Shown piece by piece: positions 13,255-46,238 of a stretch of 64,000 nucleotides of DNA. The position numbers were made by a program, and so were the translations under genes. The stretch covers positions 1-64,000 of the forward strand of contig CANCPA010000002.1 in the NCBI GenBank assembly GCA_947379895.1, written 5' to 3'. Source of the stretch: Chitinophagaceae bacterium (GTDB taxonomy: Bacteria > Bacteroidota > Bacteroidia > Chitinophagales > Chitinophagaceae). Under the pieces are notes generated by a model, which worked only from the letters and a program-made list of their open reading frames with translations, searched no databases and was not told the DNA's origin. Every line of letters starts with the position of its first letter. Position 1 is the first letter of the stretch.

Positions 13255-13324
13255 CTAATAAATCCTTGTGATTCTTTGGAAAATCTTTGTGTTCATAGTG
13301 ATAAAACCTCCTAAGTAGTAACCT
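13255..13324. mobile_element. Right-half remnant of MITE-like family 1
   Basis: AATCCTTGTGATTCTTTGgaaAATCTTTGTGTTCATAGTGaTAAAACCTCCTaAGTAGTAACC closely matches the right half of the copy at 15528-15690. Confidence 0.6.
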
Positions 13325-13430
13325 GTTTTTTTGAGTAATTAATGCGCATAAATAGCGCATAATATGCTTGAAAGAAGGCTTTGTTATTCATTAATACTAC
13401 TTAGAGAATTGAATAAATGTTGATTTAATT

Positions 13431-13660
13431 AATACTTCTATCATAATCGACAATAACGCGCGCAGTATTAGTAATATTGCTCTCTAAAATAGAGAAAGTG
13501 CAATCAGTAATATCAATAGTGCGAGTATTATATGTAATACTTATCTCTATTTTGAAAATTTGAGATAAATATTGGCAATACTGCGAGCAGTTTTGGGAAC
13601 TTTGCTCGCAGTTTTGATGATTTTGCGAGTAGTGTTAGTAATACTTCTATCTAATTGATT
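13431..13660. repeat. 21-bp palindromic tandem array A (11 units, one of 20 bp)
   Basis: Units include AATACTGCGAGCAGTTTTGGG / AACTTTGCTCGCAGTTTTGAT / GATTTTGCGAGTAGTGTTAGT / AATACTTCTATCTAATTGATT; core ACTGCnnGCAGT. Confidence 0.85.
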
Positions 13661-13709: not shown

Positions 13710-13891
13710 CCAAACTAGTTTACTACTCAGGATTTTTTACCACTAGGTACACAAAGTTTTTCACAAAGAAACACAAGAATTTATTGTTTATAATCGCTCA
13801 GATTCATCAATTTTATTAGAAAACTTCGTGTTCCTTGTCTTTTTCATTGTTTCCCTTGTGGTAAAATCTCCTGAGTAGTAACCAAACTAGT
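13710..13891. mobile_element. MITE-like family 1 copy (13720-13881) with candidate 10-bp target-site duplication
   Basis: TIR TTACTACTCAGGA (13720-13732) / TCCTGAGTAGTAA (13869-13881); direct repeats CCAAACTAGT at 13710-13719 and 13882-13891. Confidence 0.7.
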
Positions 13892-14678: not shown

Positions 14679-15446
14679 ATGTACAAGGCACTTTCTACTT
14701 CAATAACTTTAGGGGGCTATAAGCGAGCATATTACAAGTGGTTTAGTCATCATTTGCAGCGTGATATGGAATTACTTGTTTTTGGTGAATCTGGAAGACC
14801 TGTTATCTTTTTTCCAACAAGAACTGCAAGGTTTTTTGACTATGAAGATTGGATGGTTGTTGATGCTTTTAAGGACAAGTTGATTGCGGGAGAATTACAA
14901 TTGTTTTGTATAGATAGTGCCGACCAACAAAGTTTTTATAATAAGGCAATCACTCCTATGCAGCGAATACTTAAGCATAATCATTTTGAGCAATATATAC
15001 TTCAAGAATTAATGCCTTTTATACGGCAAAAAAATAGCAATCCAAACCTTATTTCTGCAGGTTGTAGTTTGGGTGGATATCATGCAGTTAATATTGCATT
15101 AAGGTATCCAATTCTCTTTAAAAAAGTTGTCGCAATGAGTGGTAGATACGACTTAACGTTAAGGCTTGCCTATTTTGATGATTTGTTTGAAGGGTATATG
15201 GATGATCAAATTTATAGTCATACGCCTACTAAATTCTTACCCAATATATTTAATCCACATAGTCTTGACTTACTAAGGAAGTTAGATATAACTATTGTGA
15301 TTGGAGAAGATGACGCATTTTTAAATAACAATCATCTTTTACATCAACAACTTACAGATAAGCAAATTGCTCATAAATTTTATGTTTGGAAAGGAGAAGC
15401 ACATAAAGCACAATATTGGATACAAATGGCAAAGCTTTATTTTTAA
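14679..15446 (+). CDS. Esterase family alpha/beta hydrolase
   Basis: SAGCSLGGYHAVNIALRYP nucleophile elbow; late His in WKGEAHKAQYW. Confidence 0.8.
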   Translation: MYKALSTSITLGGYKRAYYKWFSHHLQRDMELLVFGESGRPVIFFPTRTARFFDYEDWMVVDAFKDKLIAGELQLFCIDSADQQSFYNKAITPMQRILKHNHFEQYILQELMPFIRQKNSNPNLISAGCSLGGYHAVNIALRYPILFKKVVAMSGRYDLTLRLAYFDDLFEGYMDDQIYSHTPTKFLPNIFNPHSLDLLRKLDITIVIGEDDAFLNNNHLLHQQLTDKQIAHKFYVWKGEAHKAQYWIQMAKLYF

Positions 15447-15527
15447 TTAATAACCATTTCCTTGATAATATTGGGACTTATCGAAACATAACTAGGTTTT
15501 TTAGTTATCAAACACCAATCTTAATTT

Positions 15528-15690
15528 GTTACACTCAGGAGGTTTTACCACAAAGTAAACAAAGAAAAAACCAAGGAACACTAGGTTTCCTAACAAAATA
15601 GTTGAATCTGATTCATTATAAATAATAAATCCTTGTGATTCTTTGCATAAATCTTTGTGTTCATAGTGGTAAAACCTCCTGAGTAGTAAC
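15528..15690. mobile_element. MITE-like family 1 copy
   Basis: GTTACACTCAGGAGGTTTTACCAC...GTGGTAAAACCTCCTGAGTAGTAAC terminal inverted repeats, about 163 bp, no ORF. Confidence 0.7.
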
Positions 15691-15779
15691 CTTGACTTAA
15701 TTTATATCCTAAGCAAATTTTCAACTAGAAATTAAGCTTAAAAAATATCAATTTGAATAATCAATTAATAATTATTCCA

Positions 15780-29716: not shown

Positions 29717-29926
29717 TTTAACTGATAGGTTTTGTAATTTAACCCTTCAGTTTTGTCGCTTAACCCTTCAGTTTTGTCGCTTAACCCTTCAGTTTTATCG
29801 TTTAACTTATAGGTTTTGTAATTTAACTCATGAGTTGTATGATTTAACCTATAGGTTTTATAGCTTAACCTACAGGTTAAATCGCTTAACTTATAAGTTG
29901 CGTCGCTTAACTCATGAGTTTTTTTA
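29717..29926. repeat. 21-bp palindromic tandem array B (10 units of exactly 21 bp)
   Basis: Units TTTAACTGATAGGTTTTGTAA, CTTAACCCTTCAGTTTTGTCG, TTTAACTCATGAGTTGTATGA, TTTAACCTATAGGTTTTATAG, CTTAACTTATAAGTTGCGTCG etc.; core AACYYATRRGTT. Confidence 0.93.
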
Positions 29927-34900: not shown

Positions 34901-37900
34901 TGTAGATGCAGTTCCTGTAGTTGCTAAAACTACTGGTATCGATACGTCTTTGTGTGTGGGTCAGGTTACTCAATTATTCAATGCATCTAGTATCCCAACT
35001 GGTGGAACTGCGGTTTGGAGTAGCAGTAATACTGCGATTGCTAAAGTTAGTGCAACAGGAGTTGTAACTGCAGTTTCTGCAGGTACTGCCAATATAATTT
35101 ATACCGTTACCAATGCTGCAGTGGGTGGCGGAATTACACCTTGTAATAGTGCAACTTCTATTTCAATAACAGTTTCAGCTAATCCTGTAGTTTCATCGGT
35201 TAAAGCTTCGAAGTCGAATGTTTGTGTGGGAAGTAATATTACTGTCACAGACGCTACTGCCGGAGGAACTTGGGGCATTAATGATACAACATTGGCAACA
35301 ATTGATCCTTCAACAGGTGTTGTAACAGGTGTTTCAAGTGGAAGTATTATTGTTACCTATACAGTAGTTAAGAATGGTTGTACTACTACAGTATTTGGCA
35401 ATGGTACCGTAGTTGCTTTGCCTGAAGTTGCTGCAATTGTTGGAAATAGTACCCTATGTCAAGGATTTGCTACGCTATTGACAGATACTACAACCGGAGG
35501 AGTTTGGTCTACTTCTGATGCAAGTGTTGCTAACGTGAGTTCTAATGGAAATGTAACAACAGGTGCTTCAGGATCTGCAGTAATCAGTTATACTGTTACA
35601 AATCCTTATGGTTGTGTTAAGTCTGTTACTGATACAATTACAGTTAATCCGTTACCAATTGTTACGCCGATAATTGGAAATAGTTCACTGTGTATTGGTA
35701 GTACATATACAGTAACTGATTCGACATCTAGCGGGGTATGGTTGATGAGTAATACAGTTAATGCAACCATTAATTCAAATGGTATTGTGACTCCATTAGT
35801 AACAGGAGTAGATACAGTTATTTACAGTGTTACCAATGTGTATGGTTGTAAAACAACAGTGTCCTTGCCTGTTTCAGTCAATCCTACTCCTATAGCTTCA
35901 TTTACAATAAATAAATCATCACAATGTTTAAGTGATAACTACTTTATATTTACGAATACAAGTACTATCAGTTCAGGTTCAATTACTCCTACTTGGTCAT
36001 TAGGTGGTACTGTTTCGAATTCAATTAATCCTACAAATGTGTTTTCAGTTGCGGGTATTGATTCTGTAATTTTAACCGAGACAAGTAATGCGGGTTGTAT
36101 TAGTACTGCTTCACAAGTTGTTACTGTTAATCCACAACCTGTTGTTGCATTTGCTATTAATGATAGTAGTCAATGTTTAACTGGAAACAGTTTTACTTTT
36201 ACAAATAATTCGTCAATTAGTACTGGAACACAAGCATATAGCTGGAATTTTGGTGACGGTTCAAGTTCAGTTACTACAACTAGTCCAACATACGCTTATG
36301 TAAAGGCAGGAACTTATAAAGTTCAATTAACTGCAACAAGTAATAATGGTTGTATTGATAGTCTTTCTCAAACTGTTATGCTAACTGCAAATGTGGTACC
36401 ATCTGTTTCGATAAAGGCTAATACTACATCGATTTGTACAGGTTCGAATGTTGTATTTACAGCAACACCTGTAAATGGAGGGTCTAGTCCATATTATCAA
36501 TGGTATAAAAATGGATTAAGTGTAGGAAGCAATTCAAGTACCTATAATGACAATTTGTTAGTTAATGGTGATGCAATTTCTTGTGTATTAGCTAGTAGTG
36601 TAAAATGTTTAACTGCACCGATTGCAACTAGTAACAGTATCGTAGTTTCAGTTTCACAATATTCTACTCCTTCTGTAACTATATCATCATCTGCTGATAC
36701 TATTTGTGCAGGCACAAGTATAACATTTACTGCAGAACCTGTTAATGGGGGAGGAACTCCTATTTATCAGTGGCAGGTGAATGGAGTAAATGCTGGAACA
36801 AATTCTTCAACATTTACTACAAATACGCTAAATGATAAAAGTGTTGTTACTTGTAACCTTACAAGTAGTGTTACTTGTGTTACATCTCGTACAATTTCAA
36901 GTAATGCAATTACAATTACAGTACATTCATTATCTACATCAACAACAAATGCAAGTATATGTGCAGGAGCATCTTATACATTTAATGGCAATGTATATAC
37001 CACTTCAGGTACTTATATTTCACATCTAACTAATGTTTATGGTTGTGATAGTGCAGCAACTTTAGTCTTGAATGTTAAAGCGACTTCTGCTTCAACTACA
37101 AAAGCATCTATTTGTTTGGGAGGATCATATTTGTTTAATGGTACTACTTACACAACTGCAGGCACTTACACTGCACATTTAACAAATGCTGTAGGTTGTG
37201 ATAGTACTGCTACTTTATTATTAACAGTGAATCAGCCTAGTACCTCAACAACAAATGAAAGTATCTGTAATGGAAGTTCGTACACATTTAATGGTACTGT
37301 TTATACAAAAGCAGGTACTTACACCGCGCATTTAACAAATTCTGTTGGTTGTGACAGTGCCGCTACATTAATTCTTACCGTTAAATCGTTAAGTACAAGT
37401 ACTACATCTGCTAGCATTTGTGCTAATGCTAGTTATCCATTTAATGGAACGGTATACACTACTGCAGGTACCTATACAGCTCATTTGATAAATGCAGTTG
37501 GTTGTGATAGTGCTGCAACTCTAATACTAACTGTTAAGTCATTAAGTACTAGTACAACGGTTGCAAGTATTTGTGCAGGTGGTAATTATACTTTTAATGG
37601 AACTGTTTATACTACAGCGGGTACATACACGGCTCATTTGACAAATGCAGTTGGTTGTGATAGCGCTGCTACCTTAATACTTTCTGTAAAATCATTAAGT
37701 TCAAGTACTACTAATGCGAGTATTTGTGCCGATGGAAGTTATACTTTCAATGGTAATACATATAAAAGTGCTGGAACTTACGTTGCACATCTAACAAATG
37801 CAGTTGGTTGTGATAGTACTGCCACTTTAGTATTAACAATTAAATCGTTGAGTACAAGTACCACAACTGCAAGTATTTGTGCAGGAAATAGCTATACATT

Positions 37901-40727
37901 TAATGGGACTACTTATACGAGTGCAGGCAGCTATACAGCTCATCTTACAAATAGTGTTGGTTGTGATAGTGCTGCTACTTTGATATTAAGTGTTAATCAA
38001 CCTTCAACTTCTATCACAATTGCAAGTATCTGTGCTGGTTCTAGCTTCACCTTTAATGGTCGTACTTATACAAGTGCTGGTAGCTATGATGCACACCTTA
38101 CAAATGCGGTAGGTTGTGATAGTGCAGCTACATTAATTTTGACTGTAAAAGCTACTAGCAGTAGTATTACAAATGTGAGTATCTGTGCAGGTGATAGCTA
38201 CACTTTTAATGGAAGTTCTTATACTAGTTCGGGTAGCTACATTGCACATCTTACAAATTCAGTAGGTTGTGATAGTGCTGCTACTTTGATTTTAACTGTT
38301 AAATCAACAAGCTCAAGCACAACGAATGCAAGTATTTGTTCTGGAGGATATACATTTAATGGCACTACCTATACAACTTCTGGCACTTACACTGCTCATC
38401 TGACAAATAGTGTGGGTTGTGATAGTACAGCAACTTTGGTATTGTCAGTGAAATACTTGAGTACAAGTATCACAAAAGCAAGTATTTGTGAAGGAACTAG
38501 CTATAAGTTTAATGGAATTAAATATACAAGTGCAGGTAGTTATATCGCACACCTTACAAATAGTGTAGGTTGTGATAGTGCTGCAACTTTGATATTAACT
38601 GTAAATCAACCTTCAACTTCTACCACAAATGCAAGCATCTGTGCTGGTTCAAGCTACACCTTTAATGGAAGTGTCTATACAGGTGCAGGTAGCTATGTTG
38701 CTCATTTAACAAATGCAGTAGGTTGTGATAGTGCTGCAACTTTAATATTGACTGTAAAAGCTACAAGTACAAGTATTACAAATGCGAGTATCTGTGCTGG
38801 TTCTAGCTACAGCTTTAACGGAAGTACTTACACAAGTACAGGTAGTTACGTAGCGCACCTTACAAATAGTTTAGGTTGTGATAGTGCTGCAACATTAAAT
38901 TTAACTGTAAAAGAATTGAGTTCTAGTATTACAAATGCTAGTATTTGTTCTGGAAGTTCTTACTCATTTAATGGAAATGTTTATACAACTTCAGGAACTT
39001 ATGTTTCACATTTAACTAATTCCGTAGGATGTGATAGTTCGGCTACTTTAAATTTAACTGTAAAGTCAACTAGTACGAGTACAACAAATGCAAATATTTG
39101 TTCTGGCGTTGCTTATGACTTTAATGGTACTTCCTATACAAAAGCGGGTACTTATGTTGCGCATTTAACGAATAGTGTGGGTTGTGATAGTGCTGCAACT
39201 TTAATATTGACAGTCACTTTACCTGTTACTCCAACCTTAACACTTTCTGCGACTGCAACTACGATTACTGTTGGAACTAGTGTAACATTTACAGCTAGAC
39301 CTACAAATAGTGGTGGTGCTGCTATTTATCAATGGTATAAGAATGGTGCTTTAGTTACTGGTTTTTGGAATACATACACTACATCTAGTTTGAATAACAA
39401 CGATACTATTAGCTGTGTACTCACAAGCAGTATGAGTTGTGTAACTAATGTAACTGCAAAATCAAATGCCATTGTAATGACAGTTAATTACTTGTATACT
39501 ATTAATGGTACAATTAAAAGTCCTTTAGGTACAGTAATTCCTACTGTTACTGTTGGTTTAAATGGTAATCAATCAATTATTACCGATTTAAATGGTAACT
39601 ATAGTTTCACTGTTTCTGCTGACAGTAGTTTTATTGTAATGCCGACAAAATCAAATGATGTTGTAGTGGCAAATGGAGTAAATGGTACAGATATTAGTTT
39701 AGTACAAAGTCATATATTGAAGAAAGTAATTTTGAATTCTCCTTATAAGTTGATTGCAGCAGATGTAAACAATGATGGTGTCGTAAATGGTACAGACATT
39801 GCCTTGATTAAGTCTTTGATTTTAAAACGTATCAATAAATTTAGCGGTAACCGTTTGTGGGCATTTGTGGATAGTAGTTATTCTTTCCCTACACCTACTA
39901 AGCCATTCCCATATAATGATAGTATTAGTGTTGCAAATATCAGGGCTAATCAAGTAAGTCAAAATTTTGTTGGTGTCAAATTAGGTGATGTAAATTATGA
40001 TTGGAATTCATCAATTTTAGGTGCAAATCTTGCAAGTTCACCAATTGAGTTGTTCAATGATAAGATTGCAGTAAGTCCTTCAGCTTCAGAAGTTCGTGTT
40101 CCTGTTAAGGTTAAGAATTTCAAGAACATCATGGGCATGCAGTACACGTTGAACTACAATAGTGCTGCGCTAGAGTTGAAATCTATTGATAAAAATAGCA
40201 TGGGTATTGATTATAATACTGATTTTGCTACAGAAGGAAAGCTACCATTCCTTTGGGTAGATGTAACAAATAATGCTAAAACTTTGGAGGATGGCACAAC
40301 TTTGTTCGAGTTAGTATTTAACAAGAAGGGAAATTTAGCAAATGAAGACATTAGTCTCACTTCTGACATTACTTCTGCTAGTGCATTTGATGGAAACTAT
40401 GGCGCTGTATGTATTGTGAAGTCAGGCGGAACTATCAGTGATGCTGCTACAATTGTAAGTGCTGATAATTGGAATATACTTCCTAATCCTACAAAGGACG
40501 GCTTAGTAAAAGTAACTTTGTCACTTGCAAAAAGCAAGAAAGTACAATTTGAATTGACTTCATTAGATGGTAAATTATTATTACAACAGTCGAATGATTT
40601 TCCAATAGGAAATAGTTCAATTGTTCTAGACTTGCAAAGGCAAGTAAGACTTGCACCTGGAACCTACTACTTAAAAGCAGAAGGAGTGGATGGTGTTAAT
40701 ACTAAACAGGTATTGTTTATTAAATAG
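31905..40727 (+). CDS. Giant secreted multi-domain protein: Big2-like Ig repeats, PKD-like domain, 15 x about 51-aa Cys-containing repeats, dockerin-like segment, cohesin-like domain, T9SS-type C-terminus
   Basis: Signal peptide MKRIVLLLTIVTCLFSTSFAQ; repeated GGVWSSNNTAIATV..GVVTGVSAG; repeated SICAGxSYTFNGTxYTxAGxYxAHLTNxVGCDSAATLILTV; DVNNDGVVNGTDIALIKSLIL; C-term WNILPNPTKDGLVKVTLSL...VLFIK. Confidence 0.9.
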   Translation: MKRIVLLLTIVTCLFSTSFAQTGSLYFINGSAQSITLCQNSAGVVLDNYLITYDKANGLTLTYTLLTTPAHGTIHGFPGISSSNGGVASPSGFTYNPTTGYSGSDVFEVQVTDGVNTAKSTFTVAINSLPTIAPITGGTSLCGAGTKTLSDNTTGGIWTSSNTFSSIIDSLTGVVTGVSAGQSTIGYTVTSANGCTSTVTTTFTISGNPLVSGITGTTNVCVGSTTTLADVTANGVWSSNNTAIATVSGGVVTGVSAGNATIQYKVTNIYGCSTTASRNVTVNAIPVVAPITSTTGTNICGGGTITLRNATARGTWSSTNNSIATVNALGVVTGVSGGIDTIIYTVSNGGCSASSSIAITVGVTPVIGAISGVATICNRTTYQFSDTTKGGKWTSSNPLVASIDSSTGLVTAIAAGNITITYTVVSATGCSASVTAALRVVNIPSVGTITGANYVCIGSTSTLVDGTAGGVWSSTNTQLATIDNSGLVTGLATGVDTIYYTVTNASGCSNSARLIITVGASVAVPGIGGASNVCLNSTLTLTNKTTGGSWSSSDPTIAFVDNSGLITPINPGVVTISYTVGNGACTGSAIKNIIVSDVPTVDNNNLTALALCTTDSAILTNTTSGGLWTSNTSAATVTNDGIVKGISTGSGTITYTVTNSYGCFATSTTGVTVNAKPNAFTITGSNATCVNNIINLKTTGTGGLWSSSNTKVATVNVNGTVSGKSSGTASIYYTITNGNGCARVDSMVVTIAKSLTVAPIVGNTNLCLGTATTFTDSTINSSGTQGTWALTLGTGSASVNASGVVTPVALGTATLSYTVNNGSGCTGSVSQDIVINSAPTVAAIAGPTNVCAGATITLTDATVGGVWSTNNATIAIIDSNGVLTGITGAAGGGGGGANRVVVTYAYTDNIGCKASKTYNVNVRTGPGAGFTTGVTNLCVGSTSTFTNNTQGGTWASDKPSVATVDNAGLVTGVSAGSVVIQYIVSNGNGCPSVANSKLTVDAVPVVAKTTGIDTSLCVGQVTQLFNASSIPTGGTAVWSSSNTAIAKVSATGVVTAVSAGTANIIYTVTNAAVGGGITPCNSATSISITVSANPVVSSVKASKSNVCVGSNITVTDATAGGTWGINDTTLATIDPSTGVVTGVSSGSIIVTYTVVKNGCTTTVFGNGTVVALPEVAAIVGNSTLCQGFATLLTDTTTGGVWSTSDASVANVSSNGNVTTGASGSAVISYTVTNPYGCVKSVTDTITVNPLPIVTPIIGNSSLCIGSTYTVTDSTSSGVWLMSNTVNATINSNGIVTPLVTGVDTVIYSVTNVYGCKTTVSLPVSVNPTPIASFTINKSSQCLSDNYFIFTNTSTISSGSITPTWSLGGTVSNSINPTNVFSVAGIDSVILTETSNAGCISTASQVVTVNPQPVVAFAINDSSQCLTGNSFTFTNNSSISTGTQAYSWNFGDGSSSVTTTSPTYAYVKAGTYKVQLTATSNNGCIDSLSQTVMLTANVVPSVSIKANTTSICTGSNVVFTATPVNGGSSPYYQWYKNGLSVGSNSSTYNDNLLVNGDAISCVLASSVKCLTAPIATSNSIVVSVSQYSTPSVTISSSADTICAGTSITFTAEPVNGGGTPIYQWQVNGVNAGTNSSTFTTNTLNDKSVVTCNLTSSVTCVTSRTISSNAITITVHSLSTSTTNASICAGASYTFNGNVYTTSGTYISHLTNVYGCDSAATLVLNVKATSASTTKASICLGGSYLFNGTTYTTAGTYTAHLTNAVGCDSTATLLLTVNQPSTSTTNESICNGSSYTFNGTVYTKAGTYTAHLTNSVGCDSAATLILTVKSLSTSTTSASICANASYPFNGTVYTTAGTYTAHLINAVGCDSAATLILTVKSLSTSTTVASICAGGNYTFNGTVYTTAGTYTAHLTNAVGCDSAATLILSVKSLSSSTTNASICADGSYTFNGNTYKSAGTYVAHLTNAVGCDSTATLVLTIKSLSTSTTTASICAGNSYTFNGTTYTSAGSYTAHLTNSVGCDSAATLILSVNQPSTSITIASICAGSSFTFNGRTYTSAGSYDAHLTNAVGCDSAATLILTVKATSSSITNVSICAGDSYTFNGSSYTSSGSYIAHLTNSVGCDSAATLILTVKSTSSSTTNASICSGGYTFNGTTYTTSGTYTAHLTNSVGCDSTATLVLSVKYLSTSITKASICEGTSYKFNGIKYTSAGSYIAHLTNSVGCDSAATLILTVNQPSTSTTNASICAGSSYTFNGSVYTGAGSYVAHLTNAVGCDSAATLILTVKATSTSITNASICAGSSYSFNGSTYTSTGSYVAHLTNSLGCDSAATLNLTVKELSSSITNASICSGSSYSFNGNVYTTSGTYVSHLTNSVGCDSSATLNLTVKSTSTSTTNANICSGVAYDFNGTSYTKAGTYVAHLTNSVGCDSAATLILTVTLPVTPTLTLSATATTITVGTSVTFTARPTNSGGAAIYQWYKNGALVTGFWNTYTTSSLNNNDTISCVLTSSMSCVTNVTAKSNAIVMTVNYLYTINGTIKSPLGTVIPTVTVGLNGNQSIITDLNGNYSFTVSADSSFIVMPTKSNDVVVANGVNGTDISLVQSHILKKVILNSPYKLIAADVNNDGVVNGTDIALIKSLILKRINKFSGNRLWAFVDSSYSFPTPTKPFPYNDSISVANIRANQVSQNFVGVKLGDVNYDWNSSILGANLASSPIELFNDKIAVSPSASEVRVPVKVKNFKNIMGMQYTLNYNSAALELKSIDKNSMGIDYNTDFATEGKLPFLWVDVTNNAKTLEDGTTLFELVFNKKGNLANEDISLTSDITSASAFDGNYGAVCIVKSGGTISDAATIVSADNWNILPNPTKDGLVKVTLSLAKSKKVQFELTSLDGKLLLQQSNDFPIGNSSIVLDLQRQVRLAPGTYYLKAEGVDGVNTKQVLFIK
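36925..39220 (+). repeat. 15 tandem about 153-bp coding repeats within the giant gene
   Basis: 15 occurrences of the GCDSxATL motif, about 51 residues apart. Confidence 0.9.
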
Positions 40728-45272: not shown

Positions 45273-45770
45273 ATGAAAAAGGTTTTATTGATTCTCTTAG
45301 GTGGTGTATTGATTTCATCTGCATCACAAGCTCAATCTTTAATAGATCAAGCTAAATCTTCCGCAAAAGGAGTCGCTAATTCAGCTTCAACACAAGCAAA
45401 AGCAACGGTAGATGGTGCAAAGCAGGCGGCAGCTGGTCAGGTACAAAATGCTGCTTCTGCTGCAACTAACATCAAAACTGATGCTACTAACAAAGCGAAA
45501 GCAACTGTAACAGGTGCAAAGGACAAAGTGACAGGAAGTGATGCTACTGCAAAACAAGCTACTACCACTACAACTTCTGCTGCAACTTCAACTGCTGCAA
45601 CTGCGGCAACTGCAAAAACAGCTGTTAAAGCTAAGGTAGATCCGACAGTAAAGAAATTAAAGAAAGATGGTACGCCTGATAAGCGTTTCAAGGCTAATGC
45701 ACCTGCCGCAAAAAAATTAAAGAAAGATGGCACGCCTGATATGCGTTTTAAAGAAAATAAGACAAAATAG
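45273..45770 (+). CDS. Secreted Ala-rich, LEA-like protein with duplicated LKKDGTPDxRFK motif
   Basis: MKKVLLILLGGVLISSASQAQ; VKKLKKDGTPDKRFKANAPAAKKLKKDGTPDMRFKENK. Confidence 0.75.
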   Translation: MKKVLLILLGGVLISSASQAQSLIDQAKSSAKGVANSASTQAKATVDGAKQAAAGQVQNAASAATNIKTDATNKAKATVTGAKDKVTGSDATAKQATTTTTSAATSTAATAATAKTAVKAKVDPTVKKLKKDGTPDKRFKANAPAAKKLKKDGTPDMRFKENKTK

Positions 45771-46008: not shown

Positions 46009-46238
46009 CAAGCTGATGCGGCAGCCGTTCCCGTACGTGCTGCAACCACGCAAGTACGTGCTGCAATTGCTCAAGTACTTCCTTTTACCACTCCCGCACG
46101 TGCGGCAGCCACTTCCGTAAGTACGGCAACGACAAAAGCACTTGCTGCAACCGTACAAAGATTCTTTTTGTGACTCAAGCACTTGCTTTAGTCACTCCCG
46201 TACGTGCGGCAGTCTCTCAAGCACGTGCTTTAGTGGCT
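46009..46238. repeat. 21-bp palindromic tandem array C (11 units, one of 20 bp), GC-rich
   Basis: Units CCCGTACGTGCTGCAACCACG, CAAGTACGTGCTGCAATTGCT, CCCGCACGTGCGGCAGCCACT, CAAGCACGTGCTTTAGTGGCT etc.; core NNGYACGTRCNN. Confidence 0.93.

Follow-up and report, generated by a model that had tools for sequence, protein, structure and literature searches.

Tandem repeats are usually read either as replication accidents or as sequence-specific sites. The window, which is the whole 64,000-nucleotide stretch of DNA analysed here, comes from an uncultured Chitinophagaceae genus and carries a short, degenerate tandem array (array A) together with two other arrays of its class. The locus raises the question of what such arrays are, and of what in them is kept over time. 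The three arrays are the following.

13431 to 13660, no strand assigned: array A, period 21, eleven phased units, with aligned homologues
29718 to 29922, no strand assigned: array B, same class, with a AACYYATRRGTT-type dyad unit; near-identical units at 8.9 kb of contig C1 and similar ones at 3.6 kb of contig C30
61194 to 61401, no strand assigned: array C, same class, CAAAAGTCTAGAACTTTGGCC; a sister array lies on contig C281

Array A is a genuine periodic array

In array A eleven units follow one another head to tail; one of them (13557-13576) has 20 bp and the other ten have 21 bp, for a total of 230 bp. This is the structure that an earlier note on this DNA had proposed, and the units read as listed there. 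Identity at lag 21 over 13431-13660 is 0.488, compared with a mean of 0.283 (sd 0.030, z = 6.8) and a maximum of 0.388 in 2,000 dinucleotide shuffles. The highest value over any lag from 10 to 60 in 500 shuffles was 0.419, and the harmonics of the array are also raised (0.44 at lag 42 and 0.44 at lag 63). The autocorrelation that the earlier note had called for therefore upholds the periodicity, and array A is confirmed as a periodic array beyond chance. Its genome is a 401-contig assembly, probably derived from a metagenome, as might be expected of an assembly artefact, but the shuffles never attain the observed value, an independent homologue exists in another genome, and block-shuffling of the 761 kb sampled from this genome leaves only six periodic regions, one of them at period 21. 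Artefact or chance is thereby refuted, its remaining probability being practically nil.

The units are nevertheless too degenerate for Tandem Repeats Finder, which missed the array at score 40. Their best common frame is AATACTGC-GA-GCAGTATT plus 3 bp, and the ACTGCnnGCAGT core that had been suggested fits some units and not others. The total of 230 bp had also been ascribed to array C, which in fact measures about 208-216 bp. No reading frame is open from end to end, so that array A is non-coding, and no Rfam family matches it. A CRISPR array was rejected, since the units stand head to tail with no spacers.

Array A is the orphaned upstream region of a dispersed cassette

On one side array A is flanked by a 214-aa ORF that has no match in Pfam and that, judging from its start, looks like a lipoprotein. 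On the other side lies a GDSL hydrolase gene with orthologues at 72-80% identity in Chitinophagaceae MAGs. A comparison with orthologous loci had been proposed, and in the oriented loci of relatives array A is not found upstream of the GDSL gene. Around the array the following features were recognised.

13284 to 13323, no strand assigned: remnant resembling one end of a MITE (80% over 40 bp)
13329 to 13430, forward strand: left part of a dispersed element of ~335 bp, 60-65% identical to the copies on contig C191 and in genome G009, with no small ORF
13715 to 13890, no strand assigned: MITE-like element with TIRs TTACTACTCAGGA...TCCTGAGTAGTAA and the direct repeat CCAAACTAGT at its flanks

The relatives of array A lie elsewhere in the same genome. 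A search with the 230-bp query recovered relatives over its full length, at 72-73%, on contigs C6, C83 and C100, and a partial one on C191. Array A belongs to the ~335-bp element listed above, which has five copies in its own genome (G000) and one more in G009, another species of the same genus. Four of the copies match one another at 94-96% over 335 bp, and the copy in the window is about 69% alike. In its intact form (C191 and G009) the element is part of a cassette in which a ~50-aa ORF ending ...SHLISLSKGTVYPVQSSFKPPV is followed by the array, then by ~80 bp, and then by a 230-aa ORF of a family here called F230, with 83% identity between C191 and G009. The 230-aa gene is broken behind a MITE on C83 and C6, and only the small ORF and the array are present on C100. 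Near the array in the window, a translated search found neither the small ORF nor the 230-aa gene. Array A is thus shown to be the orphaned upstream region of a cassette of ~50-aa ORF, phased array and 230-aa gene, and we hold it very probable that it is an orphaned copy of the F230 family. Several contigs of this genome (C6, C83, C47 and C371) end near these cassettes; the assembly was probably interrupted by the arrays or by the repeated genes, so that the copy numbers are lower bounds.

The MITE-like neighbour that the earlier note had described is real, with its TIRs and a direct repeat of 10 bp. About 20 matches to its family occur in roughly 0.83 Mb sampled from this genome, and a further member lies in the window at 15525-15692. 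The site occupied at 13715-13890, which in C191 is vacant and lies directly ahead of the ATG, is filled by a MITE in C6 and C83 as well. Because the MITE in the window is only 76-77% like those of C6 and C83, which are 95% alike, it may be an independent insertion.

The earlier note had further read array A as an older, decaying member of its class. Its age and its kinship with arrays B and C stand, but its degeneracy is not a sign of local decay. Lag-21 identity is similarly low in all six copies (0.488, 0.510, 0.500, 0.505, 0.543 and 0.457, at near-equal lengths), including the C191 copy that still precedes an intact gene, and units are closer to their counterparts in other copies (0.70) than to the adjacent units of their own array (0.52). 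The degeneracy is thus ancestral and common to all the copies. Array A is accordingly a fixed-length element whose units diverged prior to dispersal, and what has decayed at its locus is the cassette, through loss of its small ORF and of the 230-aa gene. The arrays of the window, C191 and G009 differ pairwise at 66-74 of ~229 positions with only one or two gap events. Gap events are rarer in the array than in its flanks, in small counts from pairs that are not independent, and a length constraint on array A is only suggestive. Array and flanks are about equally diverged, at 0.68-0.71 and 0.57-0.73, respectively.

A class of arrays that shares spacing and not sequence

The host genus abounds in non-coding arrays with a period of 21, and also of 42, 63, 41 and 20, as seen in a census of sampled stretches of metagenome-type assemblies. 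The 761 kb from the genome itself hold 53 non-coding periodic regions, a density slightly inflated because the first sample was partly picked for array relatives (the second was picked regardless of arrays). Twenty-six of them have period 21, more have periods 42, 63 or 41, and 12 have period 14 and are of a heptamer type. Other species of the genus, sampled over 400 kb on contigs known from earlier protein matches, gave 37 periodic regions, 20 at period 21. Only eight were found in 760 kb of other genera, none of the 21-class at a score of at least 0.55. Array A belongs to this class in being non-coding with a period of 20-21 bp well above shuffles. It does not lie just upstream of an F230 gene or of a gene of a second family, F319, a position that holds for many class arrays and not for all.

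Of the 115 good steps between units in the 21-bp arrays, 114 measure exactly 21 bp. Across different arrays the best unit match averages 10.17 of 21 positions, against 10.16 for shuffled units, and the array sequences are therefore unrelated, with few family exceptions such as array B and the array on C1. Arrays change faster than their genes yet stay uniform within; for one pair, identity is 0.88 for the gene, 0.72 between the arrays and 0.83-0.89 within them. Unit sequence is thus shown to change freely, and in concert in regular arrays, while spacing is kept. What the class has in common is a spacing of 20-21 bp or its multiples, near two helical turns, rather than a sequence, an RNA fold or a reading frame, which suggests that spacing itself is what is kept.

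Several accounts of the period were rejected. Coding repeats do not explain it, as array A has no frame open throughout and open frames occur in 20 of 46 arrays where 20.0 are expected. An origin from three heptamers is not borne out by lag 7, which at 0.282 +/- 0.014 is not clearly above a baseline of about 0.265, and no half-period of 10-11 bp was found. Dyad symmetry of the consensus unit is enriched over chance, with 21 of 46 arrays at p < 0.05, so that palindromes are not universal. Positional conservation was dismissed because the AsnRS and GDSL orthologues lack arrays. The former concerns a B-type array (L049:8866-9145) lying 56-84 bp upstream of an asparaginyl-tRNA synthetase gene, present only in this genome's species and not in the seven genus orthologues checked.

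Arrays of TTTAAGG-type heptamers (period 7/14) occur at L061:12330-12490 and 15010-15105 and at L176:6112-6371; they are a separate kind from the 21-bp class and are found in another genus too. Within the window, a GC-richer stretch with a 21-bp period (46016-46157) beside the ORF at 45273-45770 is stop-free in at least one frame and may be a former coding repeat. Imperfect 153-bp repeats lie at 37134-39206 within a 2940-aa ORF.

Arrays precede nearly all members of two unrelated gene families

Within the genus, as many as ten matches to F230 occur in a single genome. An array of the 21-class, with its own unit each time, lies within 500 bp upstream of 21 of the 27 members that have enough upstream DNA. 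For the 319-aa family F319 the count is 24/24, mostly with 42- or 41-bp units. Control ORFs have an upstream array in 53 of 692 cases (8%; Fisher p = 2e-17 for F230 and 2e-25 for F319), and in the other genera sampled the upstream DNA is periodic for 1/455 ORFs. No relation between F230 and F319 was detected by hhalign. A class array is thus shown to precede nearly every member of two unrelated families.

The association was tested out of sample with profiles of both families against 120 genomes from 103 genera of Chitinophagaceae. Homologues were found in four further genera, and an array with its own units lies upstream in 20 of the 21 testable cases, one of the 20 (L262) being marginal at a score of 0.50. 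On C281, the sister of array C is followed 293 bp downstream by a distant F230 relative.

Neither family could be assigned: F230 has no convincing match in Pfam, NCBIfam or PHROG, and F319 has none in Pfam. A phage origin was rejected, as no relative of either family was found in viral contigs by a search that picks up close relatives only. In seven members of the genus, F319 (L060:7738-8697 and relatives L197-L226) has 6-15 matches per genome, and every testable locus of this set has a 41/42-bp array in front, often with TTTGCT...AGCAAA units around a variable inverted-repeat centre. At many F230 loci (L047:4906-5058 and relatives) a conserved ~50-aa ORF ending GTVYPAQSSFHPPV has its stop just before the array; it was not seen at F319 loci. 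A cobalamin riboswitch (Rfam RF00174, 84.8 bits) lies at L060:605-832.

What the arrays may do

We favour, tentatively and with somewhat less than even confidence, the reading that the arrays act as duplex DNA, as a side-by-side protein-binding platform that sets the expression of the adjacent gene. An array would then be double-stranded DNA with about ten to fourteen adjoining sites of roughly two helical turns each. One putative protein, each copy covering some two helical turns, would fill them side by side, and the resulting short nucleoprotein filament would set expression of the gene next to it. If spacing and occupancy outweigh the exact letters, arrays could expand, homogenise and diverge freely. 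The copy in the window is probably a relic released from that selection, with no such gene behind it. The counts for F230, for F319 and out of sample support this reading, as does the keeping of spacing over letters. Counting against it are the equal divergence of array A and its flanks and the fact that a Bacteroidota-type promoter was not reliably found around arrays; arrays of 20 and 41 bp, which drift off phase, speak against strict helical phase.

The layout of repeat array and then gene also suits an array that is transcribed and acts as RNA, either as a multi-hairpin leader or as a repeat RNA that binds the downstream protein in the style of type III toxin-antitoxin systems. Compared with shuffled sequence, array A folds more stably on either strand (z -3.2 and -3.9) and the C191 copy strongly so (z -7.0), and F319 arrays often carry the inverted repeat TTTGCT...AGCAAA in a 42-nt unit. 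Across the arrays, though, folding exceeds that of shuffles only slightly, to the same degree on either strand, and in many not at all, so that universal hairpins were rejected; in most arrays the arms do not co-vary beyond composition, the RNAalifold covariation term for family A is unfavourable (+5.62 kcal/mol), and no toxin, defence or Rfam family was matched. The lack of strand preference in folding, the covariation term and open frames at chance favour DNA over RNA. As a general account an RNA role is distinctly unlikely, and for some families, notably F319 with its inverted repeats in 42-nt units, it is possible.

Intrinsic curvature was considered as well, 21 bp being two turns, such that small bends in each unit would add up to a planar curve aiding or hindering a promoter. 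In a wedge model with provisional parameters, the ratio of end-to-end to contour length is 0.75 for arrays, 0.81 after unit shuffling and 0.90 after full shuffling, and arrays B and L119 are strongly curved. Relative to their unit shuffles, however, arrays reach a mean percentile of only 0.37, the model makes several of them straight, and 41-bp arrays would weaken the curve. Universal curvature is thus weak in the model, and curvature as the function of the arrays is very improbable.

A promoter role cannot hold for every array, because arrays outside F230 and F319 sit in gaps of every orientation, convergent included, as other gaps do (p = 0.36). That distribution suits arrays that are by-products of a lineage-specific expansion, by slippage or by a repair or recombination enzyme copying about two helical turns, which would be neutral or selfish and would be found beside F230 and F319 genes on account of those loci being mobile and gene-poor. 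Arrays do come and go, as those near the AsnRS and GDSL genes illustrate, their units are unique to each array, and their sequence changes faster than the gene. Expansion does not predict upstream presence in 24/24 and 20/21 cases for two unrelated families in five genera. It likewise fails to predict that array A kept its 229-230 bp almost free of gaps through some 30% divergence, or that dyad symmetry is over-represented. We judge it rather unlikely overall; where arrays lie outside the two families, it is the rival that carries most weight.

A more far-reaching reading, itself doubtful, is that of a new kind of two-part locus, made up of a gene and an upstream array that it hardly ever lacks. 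Of such an array only the spacing, some two helical turns for each site, would be conserved, while the site sequence could change in concert. Its reader would be a protein or chromosome-structuring machinery that senses spacing or occupancy rather than letters, used by two unrelated families in at least five Chitinophagaceae genera. Here a bacterial clade has very many arrays of unrelated sequence and single spacing before two gene families, and the pattern held as predicted in 20 of 21 additional cases from other genera. These arrays open the way to asking outright whether DNA spacing, apart from sequence, can be selected for by a cell, and what roles F230 and F319 play.

Comparison with known systems

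No description of this array class was found in the open-access literature, and the arrays belong to none of the Borg repeats, satellites, iterons or type III toxin-antitoxin systems. Iteron arrays of plasmid origins are direct repeats of about two helical turns that lie next to a gene, have a replicon-specific sequence and are bound side by side. The present arrays resemble them in geometry, as direct repeats of about two helical turns beside a gene; unlike iteron origins, they have no recognised Rep initiator (F230 and F319 being without a Pfam family), and the loci are multi-copy in one genome. Type III toxin-antitoxin loci (ToxIN, CptIN and TenpIN) likewise have a repeat array directly upstream of a gene, with repeats that differ by locus. 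Here the unit period and number differ, toxin homology and RNA covariation are missing, and the downstream genes have no match to ToxN/TenpN/CptN-type endoribonucleases in Pfam, PHROGs or PADLOC. A repeat RNA with a conserved fold was not found, given the covariation term of family A and a folding excess that is not general.

REP and BIME elements are likewise intergenic and partly palindromic (PMC3733652). REPs share their sequence genome-wide (PMC3733652), whereas the present arrays share spacing only, and instead of one dispersed palindrome, units taken from separate arrays match no better than shuffled ones do. A survey of prokaryotic satellites found few in most genomes and dispersed non-coding families to be rare (PMC6749651). 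The present arrays resemble such satellites and VNTRs as short tandem arrays in intergenic DNA (PMC6749651) and differ from them in occurring at tens per Mb with one prevailing period.

The tandem repeats of archaeal Borg elements have perfect, A-rich units, about half of them in ORFs with lengths divisible by three, and one intergenic example of 20/21 nt has been described (PMC9879509). Perfect units of unrestricted intergenic length are not what is seen here, as array A has a lag-21 identity of 0.49 and periods cluster at 21 and its multiples. Like Borg repeats, the arrays are many per genome, have units unique to each locus, are rare in close relatives and evolve fast (PMC9879509); unlike them, they are imperfect and non-coding, lie near 21 bp or its multiples, and are tied to two gene families.
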